From contig CP050293.1 of the NCBI GenBank assembly GCA_014189435.1, positions 935,001 to 999,000 of the forward strand: a stretch of DNA of 64,000 bases, read 5' to 3'. Of this stretch, positions 38,203 to 49,126 are shown in pieces; position 1 is the first letter of the stretch, and each line of letters begins with the position of its first letter. The notes under the pieces were generated by a model, which did not search any database, was not told the origin of the DNA, and worked only from the letters and a program-made list of their open reading frames with translations. Origin of the DNA: Mesorhizobium loti. GTDB lineage: Bacteria; Pseudomonadota; Alphaproteobacteria; Rhizobiales; Rhizobiaceae. Made by a program: the position numbers and the translations under genes.

Positions 38203-38805
38203 ATGGTCCGAACCGCACTCGCCGTCCTGGTGATCGATGAAAACCGCATCCGCGCCGCGATCATCGAGGCGGGGTTGCGCGAGGCCGGCCATGAGCGGGT
38301 CACCGTCATCCATGACGTGACCGGCATTGCGCGGCGGATCGCCGAGATAGAGCCGGACGTCATCGTCATCGATCTCGAAAACCCGAACCGCGACATGCTG
38401 GAAAACATGTTCCAGCTGTCGCGCGCCGTAAAACGGCCGATCGCCATGTTCGTCGATCGCTCCGACCAGGCCTCGATCGAGGCGGCGGTCGATGCCGGCG
38501 TTTCGGCCTATGTCGTCGACGGCATGCGGCAGGAGCGCGTCAAGCCGATCCTCGACATGGCGGTGAGCCGCTTCAACGCCTTTTCGCGCATGGCGCGCGA
38601 ACTGGAAGAGGTTCGCGGCGAGCTCGAAAGCCGCAAGGTGATCGATCGCGCCAAGGGCATCCTGATGAAGTCGCGCGGCCTGAGCGAAGAAGCCGCCTAC
38701 ACGCTGCTGCGCAAGACGGCGATGAACCAGAACCGCAAGATCGGCGACATCGCCCAGAGCCTGGTGACTGCAGCCGGGCTGCTGGGACCGGCGGAGGACG
38801 AATGA
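38203..38805 (+). CDS. nasT: Nitrate-responsive ANTAR antiterminator NasT
   Basis: A 200-residue protein with an N-terminal receiver-like domain (VIVIDLENP supplies the Asp position) and a C-terminal ANTAR RNA-binding helical domain (KVIDRAKGILMKSRGLSEEAAY, then LLRKTAMNQNRKIGDIA). Free NasT binds leader hairpins and prevents termination upstream of nitrate assimilation genes; NasS holds it inactive without nitrate. Its stop overlaps the nasS start (ATGA). The target leader is found at 40222-40340. Confidence 0.93.
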   Translation: MVRTALAVLVIDENRIRAAIIEAGLREAGHERVTVIHDVTGIARRIAEIEPDVIVIDLENPNRDMLENMFQLSRAVKRPIAMFVDRSDQASIEAAVDAGVSAYVVDGMRQERVKPILDMAVSRFNAFSRMARELEEVRGELESRKVIDRAKGILMKSRGLSEEAAYTLLRKTAMNQNRKIGDIAQSLVTAAGLLGPAEDE

Positions 38806-40046
38806 GCATGAGCGCCGAGCACCAGATCACCGCTGGCTTCATGCCGCTTTTCGACAGCGCTGTGCTGGTCGCGGCCGGCGAGCTCGGCTTTGCCGCGCGC
38901 GAAGGCATCGATCTTAAGCTGCACCGCGAGACCTCCTGGGCCAACATCCGCGACCGCATCGCCATCGGCCACTTCCATCTCGCGCATATGCTGGGACCAA
39001 TGCCGCTCGCCTGCAATCTCGGGCTGACGCCGCTGGCCTCCGAGACCATCGTGCCGTTCTCGCTCGGCCTCGGCGGCAATTGCGTCACCGTCTCCAACGC
39101 CGCTTGGGCCGGCATGGTAGCGCATGGCGCCGCGGCCGACCTCGATCCCGCGCGCGCCGGTGCCGCATTGCGCGCGCTCATCCGCGAGCGCGCTGCGGCC
39201 GGTGGCGATCCGCTGCGCTTTGCCGTCGTGCATCCGCATTCCGGGCACAATTACGAGCTGCGCTACTGGCTCGCCGCCTGCGGCATCGATCCTGAGCGCG
39301 AGATCGAGATCGTCATCGTGCCGCCGCCCTTCATGGCCGATGCACTGGCCGCCGGCCGGATCGATGGCTACTGCGTCGGCGAACCCTGGAACAGCGCTGC
39401 GGTTGCCGCTGGCACCGGCCATATCGTCACCGTCAAGGCGCAGATATGGCGAAACAGCCCGGAGAAGGTGGTCGGCGTGCGGAAGGCCTGGGCGGACGAA
39501 AACCCCGAGGCACTGGCGGCGCTCCTGCGCGCGCTGCATCACTCGGCGCGCTGGTGCCAGGATCCGGCCAACCATGGCGAGTTGGCCGCTTTGATGGCTC
39601 AGGCCGGCTTCCTCGGCCTGCCGCCGGCCGTCCAGATGCCGATCCTGACCGGCCGTCTGCAACTCGGCGACGGCGCGGAGCGGACGATCGACGACTTCTT
39701 CCTGCCCTTCGACAAGGCCGCGAACTTTCCGTGGAAGAGCCATGCGCTGTGGTTCTACACGCAGATGGTGCGCTGGGGGCATGTGACGCACACGCCGGAA
39801 AACTTTGCCATCGCCCGCGACTGCTACCGGCCCGACCTCTACCGTTCGGCGCTGAAGCCGCTTGGCGTCGCACTTCCCGGCGCCAATTCGAAGGTCGAGG
39901 GCGCGCTCCGTGTGGCCACCGCGGTGGGTGCGACCGGTGCCGGCTTGGTGCTCGGGCCGGACGGTTTCTTCGACGGCCAGATCTTCGATCCCGACGAGAT
40001 CGACGCCTACATTGCCGGCCAGGAATCCGCCGAGATCCAGGCCTGA
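38802..40046 (+). CDS. nasS: Cytoplasmic nitrate/nitrite sensor NasS
   Basis: A 414-residue protein of the NrtA/CmpA binding-protein fold (ITAGFMPLFDSAVLVAAGELGF, then YCVGEPWNSAAV, then WKSHALWFY) but with no signal peptide or Tat motif. It is therefore cytoplasmic, as expected of NasS. In the known system it binds NasT and releases it when nitrate or nitrite binds. The nasT-nasS overlap and the nrtA gene downstream make the assignment firm. Confidence 0.92.
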   Translation: MSMSAEHQITAGFMPLFDSAVLVAAGELGFAAREGIDLKLHRETSWANIRDRIAIGHFHLAHMLGPMPLACNLGLTPLASETIVPFSLGLGGNCVTVSNAAWAGMVAHGAAADLDPARAGAALRALIRERAAAGGDPLRFAVVHPHSGHNYELRYWLAACGIDPEREIEIVIVPPPFMADALAAGRIDGYCVGEPWNSAAVAAGTGHIVTVKAQIWRNSPEKVVGVRKAWADENPEALAALLRALHHSARWCQDPANHGELAALMAQAGFLGLPPAVQMPILTGRLQLGDGAERTIDDFFLPFDKAANFPWKSHALWFYTQMVRWGHVTHTPENFAIARDCYRPDLYRSALKPLGVALPGANSKVEGALRVATAVGATGAGLVLGPDGFFDGQIFDPDEIDAYIAGQESAEIQA

Positions 40047-40072
40047 TCATTTCCGCGCCAGTCTTGTGCATT

Positions 40073-40087
40073 GCACAAAAATTGTGC
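40073..40087 (+). promoter_or_regulatory. NtrC-type enhancer site GCAC-N7-GTGC
   Basis: GCAC at 40073-40076 and GTGC at 40084-40087 with a 7-bp spacer match the NtrC box layout (as in TGCACCAACATGGTGC of E. coli glnA). It lies about 140 bp above the predicted nrtA start point, a usual distance for sigma-54 activators. A second overlapping dyad, GTGCATTGCAC, begins at 40066. Confidence 0.7.
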
Positions 40088-40195
40088 GTACGATTGCTCT
40101 AATGAACAATCTTTGGCCTGCCCGCTATAGGCCCGGCGTGTCGGTGACCGGCACGGACTGCTGATTTCATTGGTCTTTTTCCTCTCTCTCGAAAC

Positions 40196-40211
40196 TGGCA
40201 CGGTTCATGCT
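40196..40211 (+). promoter_or_regulatory. Sigma-54 promoter of the nrt-nir-nas operon
   Basis: TGGCACG-N4-ATGCT matches the RpoN consensus TGGCACG-N4-TTGCW at all but one of the core positions, with the -24 GG (40197-40198) and -12 GC (40209-40210) at the exact spacing. Predicted transcript start is near 40222. With the NtrC-type site this links the operon to nitrogen limitation. Confidence 0.8.
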
Positions 40212-40223
40212 TTGACATAGACA

Positions 40224-40266
40224 GGCCCTTCGCGGGTCACGGAACAGGCGTCCAATGGCGGGCGCC
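40224..40266 (+). ncRNA. NasT (ANTAR) target hairpins in the nrtA leader
   Basis: The second hairpin (40247-40266) has stem GGCGTCC / GGGCGCC and a hexanucleotide loop AATGGC (40254-40259). Loop A at position 1 and G at position 4 are the residues ANTAR proteins recognise. A weaker first hairpin (GGCCC 40224-40228 / GGGTC 40234-40238) begins at the predicted 5' end, but its loop TTCGC does not show the A1/G4 pattern. The arrangement P1-P2-terminator is that of known NasT/NasR leaders. Confidence 0.72.
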
Positions 40267-40275
40267 ACAGGCAAA

Positions 40276-40339
40276 GCTGCCGCTCAGGTCAATGCGCTCC
40301 CGGTCACCCGGACGCGAAGACCTGGCTGGCGGCTTTTTT
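40276..40339 (+). terminator. Leader attenuator terminator upstream of nrtA
   Basis: Arms GCTGCCGCTCAGGTC (40276-40290) and GACCTGGCTGGCGGC (40319-40333) pair over 15 positions with one mismatch and three G-U pairs, followed at once by six T residues (40334-40339). It lies between the promoter and the nrtA start at 40400, so it must be overridden for expression, which fits NasT antitermination. Confidence 0.82.
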
Positions 40340-40399
40340 GTTTTGATCAACACGCAATCGACGACGCGGATCCCAAGCCGCGCCCAACCGGAGACGACG

Positions 40400-41716
40400 A
40401 TGACGAAACGGATCAGGACTGGAACGACCCTCAAGGACATGACGCGCCGCGATTTTCTGGTCAGCAGCGCGATGACGGCGGGCCTGTTCATGGCGGCCCG
40501 CAAGCTCTTTCCATCCGGCGCCTATGCCGCCACGGCCACTCCGGAAGTCACCGGCGCGAAGCTCGGCTTCATCGCGCTCACCGATGCGGCACCGCTGATG
40601 ATCGCCAAGGAGAAGGGGCTGTTCGCCAAGTTCGGCATGCCCGATGTCGAGGTGCTCAAGCAGGCCTCCTGGGGCGCGACACGCGACAATCTGATGCTCG
40701 GGGGTGCCGCCAACGGCATCGACGGCGCCCATATACTGACGCCGCTGCCTTACCTCATGCACACCGGCAAGGTGACGCAGAACAACCAGCCGATGCCGAT
40801 GGCGATCGTAGCGCGGCTCAACTATGACTGCCAGGGCATTTCGGTCGCCCAGGAATATGCCGGCACCGGTGTCGGCCTCGACGCCTCGAAGCTGAAGGAC
40901 GCCTTTGCCGCCAAGAAGGCGGCCGGCAAGGACGTCAAGGCCGCCATGACCTTTCCGGGCGGCACGCATGATCTGTGGCTGCGCTACTGGCTGGCCGCCG
41001 GCGGCATCGATCCCGACAAGGACGTCTCGACCATCGTCGTGCCGCCGCCGCAGATGGTGGCCAACATGAAGGTCGGCAACATGGACGTGTTCTGCGTCGG
41101 CGAGCCGTGGAACGAGCAGCTTGTCCACCAGGGCGTCGGCTTCACCGCCGCCACGACGGGCGAATTGTGGAAGGGTCATCCGGAAAAGGCGCTCGGCCTG
41201 CGCGCCGAATTCATCGACAAATACCCGAACGCCACCAAGGCGATCCTGATGGCCGTCATGGAAGCCCAGCAATGGTGCGAGGCCAAGGAAAACAAGGACG
41301 AGATGGCCGCCATCATCGGCAAGCGGCAATGGATGAACGTGCCCGTCGCCGACATCATCGGCCGCCTCAAGGGCGACATCAACTACGGCAATGGCCGCGT
41401 CGCCAACGGCACCGACCTCTACATGAAGTTCTGGAAGGACGGCGTCTCCTATCCGTTCAAGAGCCACGATACGTGGTTCCTCGCCGAGAACATCCGCTGG
41501 GGCAAATTCGCGCCGACCACCGACATCAAGGCGCTGGTCGATCAGGTCAACCGCGAGGATCTGTGGCGCGAGGCGGCCAAGGATCTCGGCGTCGCGGCAG
41601 CCGATGTTCCGGCGTCCTCGTCGCGCGGCATCGAGACCTTCTTCGACGGCAAGATCTTCGATCCCGCCAACCCGTCCGCCTATCTCGACAGCCTGAAGAT
41701 CAAGGCATTGGCTTGA
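40400..41716 (+). CDS. nrtA: Nitrate ABC transporter binding protein NrtA
   Basis: A 438-residue binding protein with a twin-arginine signal (TRRDFLVSSAMTAG) and the CmpA/NrtA fold (AKLGFIALTDAAPLMIAKEKGLF, then FCVGEPWNEQLV, then WKGHPEKALGLR). I chose ATG 40400 because GGAGA sits 7 nt upstream and the Tat motif follows; the frame is open further upstream through the leader terminator. It delivers nitrate to NrtB/C. First structural gene of the attenuated operon. Confidence 0.92.
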   Translation: MTKRIRTGTTLKDMTRRDFLVSSAMTAGLFMAARKLFPSGAYAATATPEVTGAKLGFIALTDAAPLMIAKEKGLFAKFGMPDVEVLKQASWGATRDNLMLGGAANGIDGAHILTPLPYLMHTGKVTQNNQPMPMAIVARLNYDCQGISVAQEYAGTGVGLDASKLKDAFAAKKAAGKDVKAAMTFPGGTHDLWLRYWLAAGGIDPDKDVSTIVVPPPQMVANMKVGNMDVFCVGEPWNEQLVHQGVGFTAATTGELWKGHPEKALGLRAEFIDKYPNATKAILMAVMEAQQWCEAKENKDEMAAIIGKRQWMNVPVADIIGRLKGDINYGNGRVANGTDLYMKFWKDGVSYPFKSHDTWFLAENIRWGKFAPTTDIKALVDQVNREDLWREAAKDLGVAAADVPASSSRGIETFFDGKIFDPANPSAYLDSLKIKALA

Positions 41717-41786: not shown

Positions 41787-42677
41787 ATGTCGATCCAGAC
41801 TATCGAGGACACAAAAGTGAAGGCGTTCCCCGCGAAGCCGGCGGCGGTCATCGCCTTCACCGCCAGGGCGCGGCGCCGCTTCGATCCGCTCGCCGTCGCC
41901 GGCAAACTGGCGAGCGCGCTGGTGCCGCCCATCATCGTCATCGCGCTGATGCTGGTCGTCTGGCAGATCGCCTGTTCGTCGCCGACATCGAGCCTGCCGC
42001 CGCCGACCCAGGTGTGGAACGAGGCCTATGATCTGATCGCGCATCCGTTCTTCGACAATGGCCCGCAGGATATCGGGCTCGCCTGGCGGGTGCTGATCTC
42101 GCTGCAGCGCGTTGCCATCGGTTTCGGCCTGGCGGCGATCATCGGCGTCGCGCTCGGCGCGCTGGTCGGCCAGTCGATCTGGGCGATGCGTGGCCTCGAC
42201 CCGGTGTTCCAGATCCTGCGCACGGTGCCGCCGCTGGCCTGGTTGCCGCTGTCGCTGGCTGCGTTCCGCGATTCCAGCCCGTCGGCGATCTTCGTCATCT
42301 TCATCACCTCGATCTGGCCAATCATCATCAACACGGCCGTCGGCGTGCGCAACATCCCAGAGGATTACCGCAACGTCTCGCGCATTCTGCGGCTCAACCA
42401 GTTCGAGTTCTTCGTCAAGATCATGGTGCCGGCCGCCGCGCCCTACATCTTCACCGGCCTGAGGATCGGCATCGGCCTGTCCTGGCTCGCCATCGTCGCC
42501 GCCGAAATGCTGACCGGCGGCGTCGGCATCGGCTTCTTCATCTGGGACGCGTGGAACTCGTCGCGGCTGCCCGACATCATCGTCGCGCTGGCCTATATCG
42601 GTGTCACCGGCTTCTGCCTCGACCGGCTGGTCGCGGCGGTCGGCGCCTTCGTCACCCGCGGCACAACGGCAAAGTGA
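41787..42677 (+). CDS. nrtB: Nitrate ABC transporter permease NrtB
   Basis: A 296-residue permease with six hydrophobic segments and the conserved loop of the nitrate/taurine family (FQILRTVPPLAWLPLSLAAF; IIINTAVGVRNIPEDYRNVSRIL). It forms a homodimeric channel for nitrate uptake with NrtA and the ATPase that follows 10 bp later. Confidence 0.9.
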   Translation: MSIQTIEDTKVKAFPAKPAAVIAFTARARRRFDPLAVAGKLASALVPPIIVIALMLVVWQIACSSPTSSLPPPTQVWNEAYDLIAHPFFDNGPQDIGLAWRVLISLQRVAIGFGLAAIIGVALGALVGQSIWAMRGLDPVFQILRTVPPLAWLPLSLAAFRDSSPSAIFVIFITSIWPIIINTAVGVRNIPEDYRNVSRILRLNQFEFFVKIMVPAAAPYIFTGLRIGIGLSWLAIVAAEMLTGGVGIGFFIWDAWNSSRLPDIIVALAYIGVTGFCLDRLVAAVGAFVTRGTTAK

Positions 42678-42687
42678 GGAGAGGGCG

Positions 42688-43485
42688 ATGACGGCCTATC
42701 TGAAGCTCGACCATATCGACAAATCCTTCACCCGTGGTGCCCAGGTCAGCGAGGTGTTGAAGGACATCCGACTGACCATCGACAAGGGCGAATTCGTCTC
42801 CATCATCGGCCATTCCGGCTGCGGCAAGTCGACCTTGCTCAACCTGATCGCCGGGCTGACCAAAGTGTCCGCCGGCGCCGTGCTGCTCGAGGACAAGGAG
42901 GTCGACAGTCCCGGACCCGAACGCGCGGTTGTGTTCCAGAACCACTCGCTGCTGCCGTGGCTGACCGTCTATGAAAACATCAACTTGGCCGTGGCAAAGG
43001 TCTTCGGTCGTTCGAAGAGCAAGGCCGAGCGGCATGACTGGATCATGCGCAATCTCGACCTCGTGCAGATGGCCCATGCCAAGGACAAGCGCCCGGCCGA
43101 GATATCGGGCGGCATGAAGCAGCGCGTCGGCATTGCCCGGGCGCTGGCCATGGAGCCGAAGATCCTGCTGCTCGACGAGCCGTTCGGCGCGCTCGATGCG
43201 CTGACGCGCGCGCATCTTCAGGACGCGGTGATGGACATCCATTCCAGGCTCGGCTCGACGACGATCATGATCACCCATGATGTCGACGAGGCGGTGCTGC
43301 TCTCCGACCGCATCGTCATGATGACCAACGGCCCGGCGGCGACCATCGGCGAGGTGCTTGCCGTGCCGCTGGCGCGGCCGCGCCGGCGCGTCGAACTCTC
43401 TTCCGACCGGACCTTCCTGCGCTGCCGCGAGGCAGTGCTGAAGTTCCTCTACGAACGCCACCGCTTCGTCGAAGCCGCGGAGTAG
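42688..43485 (+). CDS. Nitrate ABC transporter ATPase (NrtC/NrtD type)
   Basis: A 265-residue ATPase with Walker A GHSGCGKST, signature ISGGMKQRVGIARAL and Walker B ILLLDEPFGALD. It is a single-domain protein without the NrtA-like C-terminal regulatory domain of cyanobacterial NrtC, so it resembles NrtD or the proteobacterial NasD type. ATG 42688 follows GAGGAGAGGGC. It lies 4 bp before nirB, consistent with one operon. Confidence 0.9.
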   Translation: MTAYLKLDHIDKSFTRGAQVSEVLKDIRLTIDKGEFVSIIGHSGCGKSTLLNLIAGLTKVSAGAVLLEDKEVDSPGPERAVVFQNHSLLPWLTVYENINLAVAKVFGRSKSKAERHDWIMRNLDLVQMAHAKDKRPAEISGGMKQRVGIARALAMEPKILLLDEPFGALDALTRAHLQDAVMDIHSRLGSTTIMITHDVDEAVLLSDRIVMMTNGPAATIGEVLAVPLARPRRRVELSSDRTFLRCREAVLKFLYERHRFVEAAE

Positions 43486-43489
43486 CACC

Positions 43490-45939
43490 ATGAGCGAAAG
43501 ACTGGTCATCATCGGCAACGGCATGGCCCCCGGGCGCATGCTCGAGCACCTTTTGGAACAGGCGCCGGGCCGCTACACCGTCACCATCTTCAACGCCGAG
43601 CCGCGCGTCAACTACGACCGCATCATGCTGTCGCCGGTGCTGTCGGGCGAGAAGGCCTATGAGGAGATCATCATCCATGGCGACGGCTGGTACATCGCCA
43701 ACAACATCACCCTCTACAAGGGCCACAAGATAGTCGCCATCGACCGGGCGGCGAAGACCGTCACCTCCGATCACGGCGTCACGGAGCCCTATGACAAGCT
43801 CGTCATCGCCACCGGCTCGGTGCCGTTCATCATTCCGGTGCCTGGCCACGATCTGCCGGGCGTGCTGACCTATCGCGATCTCGACGATGTGCAGGCGATG
43901 ATGCTCGCCGCCCAGTCACGGTCCAAGGCGGTGGTCATCGGCGGCGGCCTGCTCGGACTGGAGGCGGCGGCGGGCCTCAACGCGCAAGGCATGGACGTCA
44001 CCGTGCTGCATGTCATGCCGACATTGATGGAGCGCCAGCTCGATCCGGCCGCCGGCTATCTGCTGCAGCGTGCGGTGGAACAGCGCGGCATCAAGGTCAT
44101 CACCAAGGCCAACACACAGGCTATCACAGGCAACGGCAAGGTCGGGCAGGTGGAACTGGCCGACGGCACCGTCATTCCGGCGACGCTGGTGGTGATGGCC
44201 GTCGGCATCAGGCCGAATTCGGCGCTGGCGAAACAGGCCGGCATCGCCGTTAACAGGGGCATCGTCGTCGACGCCGGCATGCGCAGCAACGATCCCGACA
44301 TCTACGCGCTCGGCGAATGTGCGGAAGTCAACGGCCAGGTCTACGGTCTGGTGGCACCGCTCTACGAGATGGCGCGCGTTGCCGCCAGCCAGCTTGCCGG
44401 CAACGAGGCGGCGGCCTTCGTCCATATGGACACGCCGACCAAGCTCAAGGTCACCGGCATCGACCTGTTCTCGCTCGGCGACTTCGCCGAGGGCGAAGAC
44501 CGCCAGGAGATCGTGCTGCGCGACGCGGCCGCCGGTGTCTACAAGCGCCTTGTGCTGAAGGACGACCGTATCATCGGCACCGTGCTCTATGGCGAGACGG
44601 CGGACGGCGCCTGGTTCAACGATCTCAAGAAGAAGCAGACCGACATATCCGAAATGCGCGACACGCTCATCTTCGGCCAATCCTACCAGGGGGTGCCCCG
44701 CTGGACCCTATGGCGGCCGTTGCAGCCTTGCCGGATGATGCGGAAATCTGCGGCTGCAACGGCGTTTGCAAGGGAAAGATCACCGGCGCGATTTCGGGCA
44801 AAGGCCTGACCTCGCTTGACGACGTGCGCGCCCACACCAAGGCCTCGGCCTCGTGCGGCTCCTGCACCGGGCTGGTCGAGAAGCTGATGGTGCTGACCAT
44901 CGGCGACAAGTACAATCCGGCGGCGGTGCAGCCGATGTGCGGCTGCACGACGCTCGGCCATGACGAGGTGCGCCGGCTGATCATCGCCAAGCGCCTGAAG
45001 ACCATTCCCGCCGTCATGCAGGAACTGGAGTGGACGACCTCCTGCGGCTGCGCCAAATGCCGGCCGGCGCTCAACTACTATCTCGTCTGCGACTGGCCGG
45101 ACGACTACGCCGACGACTACCAGTCGCGCTTCATCAACGAGCGCGTCCACGCCAACATCCAGAAGGACGGCACCTATTCGGTGGTGCCGCGCATGTGGGG
45201 CGGGGTGACGAACGCCGCCGAACTGCGCGCCATCGCCGACGTCGTCGACAAGTTCGAAATCCCGATGGTCAAGGTCACCGGCGGCCAGCGCATCGACATG
45301 CTCGGCATCCGCAAGGAGGACCTGCCGGCGGTGTGGGCCGATCTCGGCCAGGCCGGCTTCGTCTCCGGCCATGCCTATGCCAAGGGTTTGCGTACGGTGA
45401 AGACCTGCGTCGGCTCGGACTGGTGCCGCTTTGGCACGCAGGATTCGACGGGCCTCGGCATCCGCATCGAGAAATTCATGTGGGGCTCGTGGACGCCGGC
45501 CAAGGTGAAGATGGCGGTGTCGGGCTGTCCGAGGAACTGCGCAGAGGCGACCTGCAAGGATGTCGGCGTCATCTGCGTCGACTCCGGCTACGAGATCCAT
45601 TTTGCTGGGGCCGCCGGCCTCGACATCAAGGGTACCGAGGTGCTCGGCATGGTCAAGACCGAGGACGAGGCGCTGGAGCACATCGTGGCGCTGACGCAGA
45701 TGTACCGCGAGCAGGGTCGCTATCTCGAGCGCATCTACAAATGGGCCAAGCGCATCGGCATCCCCGAGATCAAGCGCCAGATCATGGACGATGGGGAGAA
45801 GCGCAAGGCCTATTACGAGCGCTTCGTCTTCAGCCAGAAATTTGCCCAGGTCGATCCGTGGTCGGAACGCGTTTCCGGCAAGGACAAGCATGAATTCCGG
45901 CCGATGGCCTCGGTCGGCTTTGCGCAGGCGGCGGAGTGA
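43490..45939 (+). CDS. nirB: Assimilatory nitrite reductase large subunit NirB, interrupted by a -1 frameshift
   Basis: Two reading frames together encode an 816-residue NirB of normal length. Frame one has the FAD/NAD part (VIIGNGMAPGRMLEHLL, VVIGGGLLGLEAAAGL). Frame two has the BFD-like 2Fe-2S region (CGCNGVCKGKI, SCGSCTG) and the siroheme/4Fe-4S ligands (CVGSDWC, GCPRNC). The break is at a run of five G (44689-44693): the family text SYQGGAPLDPM needs six G, or a ribosome slip of -1 on GGG. As written, translation would end at 44809 and give a product without the siroheme domain. True mutation, sequencing error and slippage cannot be told apart here. The reaction is nitrite to ammonium with NAD(P)H. 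Confidence 0.88.
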
Positions 45940-46277: not shown

Positions 46278-49126
46278 ATGGAGATCGACGCAGCGCGCGA
46301 GGTGAGGACCACCTGCCCCTATTGCGGGGTGGGCTGCGGCGTGCTGGCGAAGGTCGCCGCGGACGGGCAAGTGTCCGTCCGCGGCGACCCCGACCATCCG
46401 GCGAATCTCGGCCGGCTCTGCTCCAAGGGCTCGGCACTGGTCGAGACCATCGACCTCGACGGCAGGCTGCTGCATCCCGAGATTCATGGTCGGCGCGCCG
46501 GCTGGGACGAGGCACTCGACCTCGTCGCCTCGACCTTCTCGCAGACCATCGCCGAACACGGCCCCGATGCGGTCGCCTTCTATGTCTCCGGCCAGTTGCT
46601 GACCGAGGATTACTACGTCGCCAACAAGCTGATGAAAGGCTTTGTCGGCTCGGCCAACATCGACACCAATTCGCGGCTGTGCATGGCTTCCTCGGTCGCC
46701 GGCCACCGCCGCGCCTTTGGCTCGGATACCGTGCCGGGAAATTACGAAGACCTGGAGCTTGCCGACCTGATCGTGCTCGTCGGCTCCAATCTCGCCTGGT
46801 GCCATCCCGTGCTATACCAGCGCATCGCCGCCGCCAGGGAAAAGCGGCCGGAGATGAAGATCGTGCTGGTCGACCCGCGCCGCACCATGACCGCTGACAT
46901 AGCCGACATGCACCTGGCGATCGCGCCGGATGGCGATGTCGCCCTGTTCACTGGGCTGCTCGCCTGGCTCGGCCAGCACAACGCGCTCGACCGCGCCTAC
47001 ATCACGACGCACACGACCGGCTTCGGGCAGGCGCTGTTCGCGGCATCGGCGCTCGACCTTGCCGGCGTCGCCGCCGCGACGGGCCTGAGCGAGGACGAGC
47101 TTGGCCGTTTCTACAGCCTGTTCGCGGCGACGCCGAAAACAGTGACCGTCTACAGCCAGGGGGTGAACCAGTCGTCGTCCGGCACCGACAAGGTCAACGC
47201 CATCATCAACTGCCATCTCGCCACCGGCCGCATCGGCAAGCCTGGGGCCGGGCCGTTCTCTGTGACCGGCCAGCCCAACGCCATGGGCGGGCGCGAAGTC
47301 GGCGGCATGGCCAACATGCTGGCCGCCCATATGGAGATCGAAAACCCAGACCATCGCGAGCGCGTGCAGCGCTTCTGGAACGCGCCCACCATCGCCCAAA
47401 AGCCCGGCCTGAAGGCGGTCGAGATGTTCCAGGCGCTGGCCGACGGGCGCATCAAGGCGCTGTGGATCATGGCCACCAACCCGGTCGATTCGATGCCGGA
47501 TGCCGGCGCCGTCGAAGCGGCGATCAAGGCGTGCCCGTTCGTCGTGGTGTCGGACGTCTTGGCCCAAACCGACACCGTCCGCCACGCCCATGTCCGGCTG
47601 CCCGCCGCCGCCTGGGGCGAGAAGGATGGCACGGTCACCAATTCGGAGCGCCGGGTGTCGCGCCAGCGCGCTTTTTTGCCCGTGCCCGGCGAGGTGTTGC
47701 CCGATTGGCGGATCATTGCCGAGGTGGGCAAGCGGATGGGGTTTGGCGAGGCGTTTTCCTATGCGTCGCCGGCGGAGGTGTTTTCCGAGCACGCCGCGCT
47801 ATCGGGGTTCGAGAATGATGGTTCGCGGGATTTCAATATTGGGGCTTATGCCGGGGTTGATGCGAAGGGGTATGAGGAATTAGCCCCGTTCCAATGGCCA
47901 GCGCCGAGCCCAGCCACCCCCTCTGGCCTGCCGGCCATCTCCCCCGCAAGGGGGGGAGATCGGCTGCCACCACGGCCTTCGCAAGCTACCAACAACGATG
48001 CAGGAGACATACGGCCATCAAAGCTGCCAATCTCCCCCTTGCGGGGGAGATGGCCGGCAGGCCAGAGGGGGGTGTTCAAGCTGGACTTAAACCAGAAGGC
48101 GAAAACACCCGCTTCTTCGCCAACGGCGATTTCTACACACCCGACCGCAAGGCGCGCTTCATCGCTATCCGTCCCACCACGGAAATCCGCACCAGCCCCG
48201 ACTATCCGCTGATCCTCAACACCGGCCGTATCCGCGACCATTGGCACACCATGACGCGGACGGGAAAAAGCCCGCGGCTTTCGCAGCACATCGCCGAGCC
48301 CTTCGTCGAAATCCACCCGGCGGATGCGCAGCACTTCGGCATCGGCGACGCCGACATCGCGCGGGTTTCCAGCCCGCGCGGCGACGTGCTGGTGCGCGCG
48401 CTGGTGACGGCGCGGCAGCGCCAGGGCAGCCTGTTCGCACCGATGCACTGGACCGATCAGTTTTCGGCAAGGGGCCGGCTCGACACGCTGACCGCGCCAC
48501 TGACCGATCCCATTTCCGGCCAGCCGGCGCTGAAACATGTCGCCGCCCGCATCGAGAAATTCACTGCTAAAGCCTTCGGCTTTGCGGTGACGCGGCAGAG
48601 GCCGGCGCCTGATACAGCGGCCTACTGGGCCGTGGCCAAATGCAAGGGCGGTTGGCGGGTGGAACTGGCCTTTGCCGATGACGACATCGATTGGGCCGGT
48701 TTCGCCGGGTCACTGTTCGGAGCGTCCCCGGGCGCCGAAATGTCAGCCTATCATGACCGCGACGCCGGCCAGCATCGCATCGCCGCCTTCGACGGCGATC
48801 ACCTGTCAGGCGCCTTGTTCGTCGCGCCCGGCCCGGTCGCAGTGTCGCGCGGCTGGGCGGCGGAACAGTTGAGTGCAGATCATGTCGACCGGCGCGGCAG
48901 GCTGGCGATCGTGGCCGGGCGGCCGGGCGGAATCGATGTCGACCGCGGCGCCATCGTCTGCTCCTGCTTCGGCGTCGGCGCCAACCAGATCGCGGAAGCG
49001 GTGCGCCGCGGCTGCGACAGCGTCGCGGCAATCGGCGCGGCCCTGCATGCCGGCACGAATTGCGGCTCCTGCCGCGCTGAAATCAGGGTGATCATCGACG
49101 CACAGAGTCTCCAAGCAGCCGAGTGA
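46278..49126 (+). CDS. nasA: Assimilatory nitrate reductase catalytic subunit NasA, interrupted by a palindromic element and frameshift
   Basis: The N-terminal frame (46278 to about 47956) has the 4Fe-4S motif CPYCGVGCGV with LCSKGSAL and the molybdopterin core (SNLAWCHPVLYQR, QGVNQSSSGTDKVNAI). The C-terminal frame has the dinucleotide-binding part (LILNTGRIRDHWHTMTRTG) and a BFD-like 2Fe-2S domain (CSCFGVGANQI, TNCGSC). Between them a 160-bp palindromic repeat (47915-48074) is inserted. Its left hairpin has seven G (47950-47956) where the right copy has five; removing two G joins the frames into an open gene of about 948 codons without stops. As written the gene is broken. Nitrate to nitrite, cytoplasmic. 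Confidence 0.85.
47915..48074. repeat. 160-bp palindromic element inserted inside nasA
   Basis: Terminal inverted repeats of about 45 bp: left 47915-47960, right 48030-48074. Each carries CTCTGGCCTGCCGGCCATCT on one strand and an inner C5/G5 hairpin. The repeats differ only by G/C-run lengths and the final bases. This layout resembles rhizobial intergenic mosaic-type (RIME-like) repeats, here inside a coding region. Confidence 0.82.

Follow-up and report, generated by a model that had tools for sequence, protein, structure and literature searches.

A putative NasT/ANTAR dual-hairpin leader upstream of nrtABC in Mesorhizobium loti and its resemblance to the narK RNA

ANTAR-controlled leaders

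The RNA target of ANTAR proteins, as set out by Ramesh et al. (2012; PMC3369931), consists of two hairpins with hexanucleotide loops that carry the bases A1 and G4, the second hairpin overlapping a terminator. In the eut genes of E. faecalis, linkers of about 5 to 12 nt are seen between the two hairpins, a range rather than a fixed rule; in eutP, shortening of the linker to 3 nt reduced induction, and a 14-nt linker also impaired it in E. faecalis (PMC3369931). The same source reports, in general terms, that the ANTAR motif matches upstream of transporters for nitrate and nitrite. For NasR, SELEX points to a C-G pair closing each loop (PMC7496416).

A serial response to nitrogen limitation and nitrate is known in kind. 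According to the account in PMC5424462, the nas genes of Klebsiella oxytoca are subject to both Ntr control and NasR antitermination, and nasAB of Azotobacter vinelandii is co-regulated by NtrBC and NasST. In Paracoccus denitrificans, where nasTS lies directly upstream of the hairpin leader of the target gene nasA, HI is required for nitrate-dependent expression; the same account places a putative NtrC site upstream of nasT and calls the nasA-leader site as yet unidentified (PMC5424462). That NasS and NasT dissociate with nitrate is established in other bacteria (PMC6759348, PMC5424462), and in Bradyrhizobium diazoefficiens the NasT thus released acts on the 5' leader and terminator of nosR (PMC6759348).

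Here, we analyze a stretch of the M. loti genome that lies between nasTS and nrtA. On the grounds of its sequence, we consider it very probable that nrtABC has its promoter and leader here, and that the latter acts as an ordinary NasT/ANTAR dual-hairpin antiterminator of known mechanism. The narK RNA listed in Rfam appears to be a device of this type as well.

The nas-nrt locus

The window, by which we mean the whole 64-kb stretch analyzed (positions 935,001 to 999,000 of contig CP050293.1), contains in this order nasT, nasS, the leader, nrtA, nrtB and nrtC, followed by nirB-type and nasA-type reductase genes. Gene names were assigned from Pfam domains and gene order, and the name NasS from position and similarity.

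38203-38805, + strand: nasT, with receiver and ANTAR domains (Pfam ANTAR 79.6 bits and Response_reg 33.8 bits, both above cut-off)
38802-40046, + strand: nasS, a nitrate-binding-protein-like sensor (Pfam NMT1_2), overlapping the end of nasT
40400-41716, + strand: nrtA, nitrate ABC transporter binding protein (Pfam NMT1_2, 356 bits), with a twin-arginine-like signal
41787-42677, + strand: nrtB (named, together with nrtC, from Pfam BPD_transp_1 / ABC_tran assignments)
42679-43485, + strand: nrtC (named as for nrtB)

The product of nasT is presumed to be an RNA-binding antiterminator, and nrtB and nrtC are presumed to be cotranscribed with nrtA. Three ANTAR matches were found in the 8.3-Mb genome, namely NasT beside the leader and two further ANTAR proteins encoded elsewhere. 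The start of nrtA was placed at 40400, and relatives match the protein from residue 1; an in-frame ATG at 40292, which lies within the terminator described below, was not taken as the start. Among the best 80 of 576 candidate loci, the closest named relatives of nrtA belong to Mesorhizobium, with up to 98% protein identity.

Further downstream, the nasA-type reductase is split over two overlapping frames (region 46278-49126), one of which contains Fe4S4 and molybdopterin domains (46278-48212), and the other dinucleotide-binding and BFD domains (47894-49126). The break sits at a palindromic repeat (47917-48071) whose 41-nt arms are 98% complementary, and this strain may carry an interrupted gene. 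In 16 of the 41 close Mesorhizobium-type loci (L194:4698 and 15 among L036-L068), a second leader with RpoN promoter, P0, P1 and P2 lies about 250 bases 3' of nrtC; at the one such locus examined further, L194, an MFS transporter of narK type follows it. This second module is absent from the window (43485-43490), because nrtC and nirB are only 4 bases apart there. At locus L193 (genome G028), nrtA and nrtB are largely missing from the interval that separates the leader from a remnant with a match to the end of nrtC. A search of viral contigs for NasT returned one fragment.

Predicted promoter and leader RNA

The following features, all located between nasS and nrtA, make up the promoter and leader region.

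40073-40087, + strand: NtrC-type dyad GCAC-N7-GTGC, GCACAAAAATTGTGC, some 140 bases upstream of the predicted start
40196-40210, + strand: RpoN (sigma-54) -24/-12 promoter, TGGCACGGTTCATGC, GG-N10-GC; predicted start near 40222
40224-40238, + strand: P0, 5'-terminal stem, the "first hairpin" of the preliminary description; not an ANTAR hairpin
40247-40266, + strand: P1, ANTAR hairpin 1, GGCGTCC-AATGGC-GGGCGCC, 7 bp; hexaloop AATGGC (40254-40259) with A1/G4
40270-40281, + strand: P2, ANTAR hairpin 2, GGC-AAAGCT-GCC, 3 bp; hexaloop AAAGCT (40273-40278) with A1/G4
40276-40339, + strand: intrinsic terminator, stem 40276-40290 with 40319-40333, TTTTTT at 40334-40339

The preliminary description of this DNA had proposed an NtrC-type site and an RpoN promoter with exact -24/-12 spacing, both placed between nasTS and nrtA. 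Both motifs are indeed present, and their placement is supported by sequence and conservation. Taken by themselves, the motifs occur at chance level in the 64 kb (3 NtrC-type motifs seen vs. 2.48 expected; 2 occurrences of TGGCAC-N6-TGC vs. 1.01 expected), so that the case for them comes from position and conservation and not from the bare motifs. In a set of 42 Mesorhizobium-type leaders (the window and L031-L071; 39 of them are named as Mesorhizobium, and L041 and L043 carry other titles), the GG-N10-GC promoter is kept throughout (42/42). The exact NtrC-type dyad is found in 31 of the 42, invariably 123-125 bases upstream of the -24 GG; its absence from the other 11 counts against our best explanation.

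The hairpin with hexaloop AATGGC and the bases A1 and G4 that had been claimed earlier was recovered as P1. The same description noted that the first hairpin has no A1/G4 loop, and regarded this as a departure from the usual two-hairpin scheme. That stem was misassigned: it corresponds to P0, and the ANTAR pair is formed by P1 and P2. The latter had been overlooked because the minimum-energy fold places most of its bases in the terminator. The leader has two hairpins in succession, each with a stem of 3 bp or more and a hexanucleotide loop that carries A1 and G4. A strict scan for such a P1-P2 pair on both strands of the window returned exactly one site, 40247-40281, and a match arose in only 3 of 20000 dinucleotide-shuffled versions of the leader. 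Two features speak against the dual-hairpin reading. The linker between P1 and P2 is only 3 nt long (ACA, 40267-40269), i.e., below the range of about 5-12 nt and of the very length that lowered induction in E. faecalis eutP, and P2 has only 3 bp (-2.8 kcal/mol).

The predicted start and the first base of P0 are about 2 bases apart. A hairpin of at least 4 bp is found at this position in all 72 distinct Mesorhizobium-type 5' segments vs. 1191 of 3600 mononucleotide shuffles, and it is kept in the Mesorhizobium-type leaders though its sequence varies. P0 perhaps protects the 5' end of the RNA.

The terminator, which had been described as a stem of 15 positions followed by six T, was confirmed. 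Its stem forms 14 pairs over these 15 positions, with one unpaired base on each side, and is topped by an inner hairpin. The fold of the leader is more stable than that of dinucleotide shuffles (z -3.71; 1 of 200 shuffles equally stable). Positions 40276-40281 are common to P2 and to the 5' arm of the terminator, and the computed folding of the growing transcript shows that the two structures overlap and exclude each other: P2 is 64-98% formed in transcripts with 3' ends at 40285-40325, and 0% formed from 40333 on, when the 3' arm of the terminator has emerged. In this model, the mutual exclusion of P2 and terminator is the predicted switch.

Conservation of the two hairpins

Conservation was assessed over 111 leaders, which comprise the 42 Mesorhizobium-type leaders, 39 leaders of a Rhizobium group and 30 loci of the narK RNA, and yield 59 distinct P1/P2 segments. 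All 41 close nrtA loci have P1 and P2, each with its A1/G4 hexaloop, in the same register and at a loop distance of 13 (41/41). Over the 59 distinct segments, A1 and G4 are both present in loop 1 of every segment, whereas in loop 2 A1 is found in 57/59 and G4 in 59/59; these counts lean towards the rule, because hairpins were placed only where loop 1 opened with AA or AG, with a preference for A1/G4 in loop 2, and because five rows were positioned manually. The loop-closing pair is C-G in both hairpins of all 59 segments, as in the NasR SELEX. When the best T run among those tried is chosen, all three bases of the 3' P2 arm pair within the terminator in 111/111 leaders, and P2 is more than 50% formed in some shortened transcript in 42/42 Mesorhizobium-type, 21/39 Rhizobium-group and 22/30 narK RNA leaders. 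An RpoN-type TGG[CT]-N9-GC lies within 75 nt before P1 in 42/42, 39/39 and 28/30 of them, respectively, the two exceptions being L129 and L134.

In an alignment of 27 rows chosen from the 111 leaders, 91.2% of cells pair vs. 70.1% when shuffled, and covariation reaches 0.608 vs. 0.196, none of 500 shuffles being as good on either count. Eight pairs have changed on both sides, a number that 116 of the 500 shuffles also reached, which is unexceptional and weighs against us, as does the outer pair of P2, unpaired in 12 of the 27 rows. The covariation signal comes mostly from P1; in P2, an exchange of A-U to G-C is seen in 8 rows.

A covariance model, R1, built from this alignment ranked the leader of the window first in the 8.3-Mb genome (45.3 bits, E 1e-5). 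The next three matches scored 32.6, 28.0 and 25.4 bits, all within reading frames. Matches at C1:472403, C1:3289441 and C1:624525 were rejected as further NasT targets, since each overlaps a long reading frame, to which C1:624525 is antisense. Among the top R1 matches inspected, none but the leader of the window was convincing as a NasT leader. NasT is encoded by 30 of the 35 R1-positive genomes, a set from which the model had partly been built. R1 is an incomplete detector, as it gave no match in 86 of 116 NasT genomes (E <= 0.005, strict filters).

The Rhizobium group (L072-L110, all upstream of nrtA) includes Rhizobium, Agrobacterium, Neorhizobium, Brucella cytisi and other Rhizobiales, and differs in its spacing. 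The gap between P1 and P2 is about 30 nt (28-32 nt, the fourth P2 pair counted) in 38 of the 39 loci, L081 being the exception. This gap contains a covarying 7-bp hairpin, in which 5 of the 7 pairs have changed on both sides and 89.9% of cells pair across 34 distinct sequences; over the same sequences, the three-helix structure shows a covariation of 0.249 vs. 0.153 shuffled (0/500). As a structured spacer, the inserted hairpin could explain how a long gap is accommodated despite the impairment caused by a 14-nt linker in E. faecalis, and would keep the NasT hairpins near each other in space though about 30 nt apart in sequence.

Proposed mechanism and alternatives

Under nitrogen shortage, transcription of nrtABC would start from the RpoN-dependent promoter through NtrC bound about 140 bases upstream, as the motifs, their spacing and their conservation suggest. 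P0, then P1 and then P2 would emerge from the polymerase in this order. Without nitrate, NasS would hold NasT, as established in other bacteria, and the 3' arm of P2 would, according to the computed folds, be taken into the stem of the terminator, at whose T run RNA polymerase would presumably stop. With nitrate, by analogy with the ANTAR family, the freed NasT would grip the A1/G4 loops of P1 and P2 and keep P2 closed, thereby blocking the terminator and letting transcription enter nrtA. It is plausible that nitrogen limitation and nitrate are read in series here.

Two other readings of the leader have to be weighed. The departure from the two-hairpin scheme put forward earlier, in which 40247-40266 would be the sole A1/G4 hairpin and would follow a first hairpin at 40224-40238 without recognition bases, can draw on the presence of the latter stem in the minimum-energy fold and on its retention in the Mesorhizobium-type leaders, as well as on the ability of NasR to bind a single hairpin, with poorer affinity (PMC7496416). 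We nevertheless hold it to be very improbable, given that P2 carries its own A1/G4 loop in the same register at every close locus, that the covariance model aligns both P1 and P2 of the window at full posterior probability, and that the loops of P0 vary freely. Nor is there much to commend the view that the stretch is a constitutive attenuator, or a plain terminator of nasTS transcripts, with NasT playing no role at nrtA. A strong terminator does lie between nasS and nrtA; however, the RpoN promoter stands between nasS and that terminator in all 42 leaders, and a terminator would not require the degree of conservation seen in the paired A1/G4 loops, which makes such a view hard to credit.

A dual-hairpin antiterminator under NasT, our preferred reading, sets the window among the described systems as follows. 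It shares with E. faecalis eutP, the target of EutV, two A1/G4 hexaloop hairpins, the second of which is exclusive with the terminator, and an ANTAR protein in the genome; it differs by its 3-nt linker, by the additional P0, by presumably responding to nitrate rather than ethanolamine and by NasS rather than a kinase as its presumed partner (PMC3369931). Klebsiella oxytoca nasF offers the same succession of Ntr control and nitrate antitermination on a two-hairpin leader, although nitrate is sensed there by NasR, a one-component sensor, instead of NasT with NasS (PMC7496416, PMC5424462). The arrangement of nasTS directly upstream of a hairpin leader is that of Paracoccus denitrificans, another alphaproteobacterium; in the window, the conserved NtrC-type dyad and the RpoN promoter lie inside the leader region, whereas the putative NtrC site described for P. 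denitrificans is the one upstream of nasT (PMC5424462). Finally, the leader and terminator of Bradyrhizobium diazoefficiens nosR are comparable, and serve denitrification rather than uptake genes (PMC6759348).

The narK RNA

Neither the window nor the 18 nrtA loci scanned out of the 80 gave a match at the gathering score of any Rfam family. Once the threshold was loosened, RF03032, the narK RNA, gave the only match that seems meaningful, with 20.7 bits in the window vs. a gathering score of 43.2 bits, which leaves the window outside the family by that score; matches to mir-3622 and mir-598 were far below their cut-offs and were taken as chance. The narK RNA reportedly originates from Weinberg et al. 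in 2017. The literature covered by our searches does not name the narK RNA, nowhere joins Rfam, ANTAR, narK and nitrate, and yielded no partner assigned to this RNA.

The consensus of RF03032 bears GGCaCAgcucUUGCU at its 5' end, followed by one modeled hairpin with loop AACGGC and then by GAC-AAAGAC-GUC, which is left unpaired. We read the GGCaCAgcucUUGCU block as a -24/-12 promoter, and the consensus as a whole as a putative RpoN promoter, a P1 and an unmodeled P2. The AACGGC-type hairpin and the conserved 3' block align in register to the window; the 5' promoter block aligns to P0 and not to the real promoter of the window. The narK RNA and the leader of the window have in common an RpoN-type promoter, an A1/G4 P1, a second A1/G4 hairpin, a terminator, nitrate genes downstream and nasT nearby. 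The window differs from the narK RNA by the presence of P0, by a shorter linker and by its score.

At E <= 0.001, the narK RNA was found in 21 of 398 Pseudomonadota genomes (36 sites, 22 of them above the gathering score). NasT (E <= 1e-20) is encoded by 20 of these 21 genomes vs. 96 of the 377 others (Fisher 9e-11, kinship ignored). In the remaining genome, G262, an open frame of 451 aa at a distance of 174 bases from the RNA contains an ANTAR domain and might encode a NasR-type protein. A narK RNA site is located within 2 kb of an ANTAR gene in 19 of the 21 genomes, and is 4-7 bases away in three; the exceptions are G410 (7.1 kb) and G425 (453 kb). Judged by eye rather than by database, the next open frame at the 30 loci is a narK-type transporter (16), a NasS- or NrtA-like protein (9), a nasA-type reductase (2) or nirB (1), L137 and L141 being left unnamed. 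Over 24 distinct members, G4 is present in both loops of all 24, and A1 in loop 2 of 22. The P2 arm falls within a terminator at 30/30 loci, and at two loci the linker is 3-4 nt long (the fourth P2 pair included in the count).

Two further observations concern individual loci. At L130, L135, L136, L140, L142 and L143, the leader precedes a NasS-like gene without an obvious signal peptide and with nasT close by, which suggests that nasS-nasT may control its own transcription there. At L134, a third hairpin with loop AACGGC is found upstream of P1.

We believe that the narK RNA is probably not a separate class; it would consist of an RpoN promoter and a NasT/ANTAR dual-hairpin antiterminator whose second hairpin has gone unmodeled. 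This module would have been reused before narK, nasS, nrtA, nirB and nasA across Pseudomonadota, and Rhizobium, Agrobacterium and relatives would have gained a covarying third hairpin that keeps the other two close. RF03032 could instead be a distinct one-hairpin class, whose likeness to the NasT leader stems from coincidence or a shared neighborhood. The single hairpin of the Rfam model, the origin of 16 of the 21 genomes in one family (f65), the distance between site and nasT in G410 and G425, and the little variation of P2 across the narK set are all in keeping with such a class. It is hard to reconcile with the recurrence of G4 in both loops and of A1 in loop 2, with the P2 arm lodged in a terminator at every locus, and with the association of the RNA with NasT genomes, the one genome without NasT having another ANTAR protein close by; on balance, we regard it as unlikely.

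Concluding remarks

The window itself adds little that is new, being a clean example of a NasT leader; the point worth following is the reading of the narK RNA. If this reading holds, the narK RNA gains a testable identity and a protein partner, and we suggest that P2 and the terminator be added to the RF03032 model. The Rhizobium form, with its inserted hairpin, would in turn be a test of how strictly ANTAR recognition depends on spacing.
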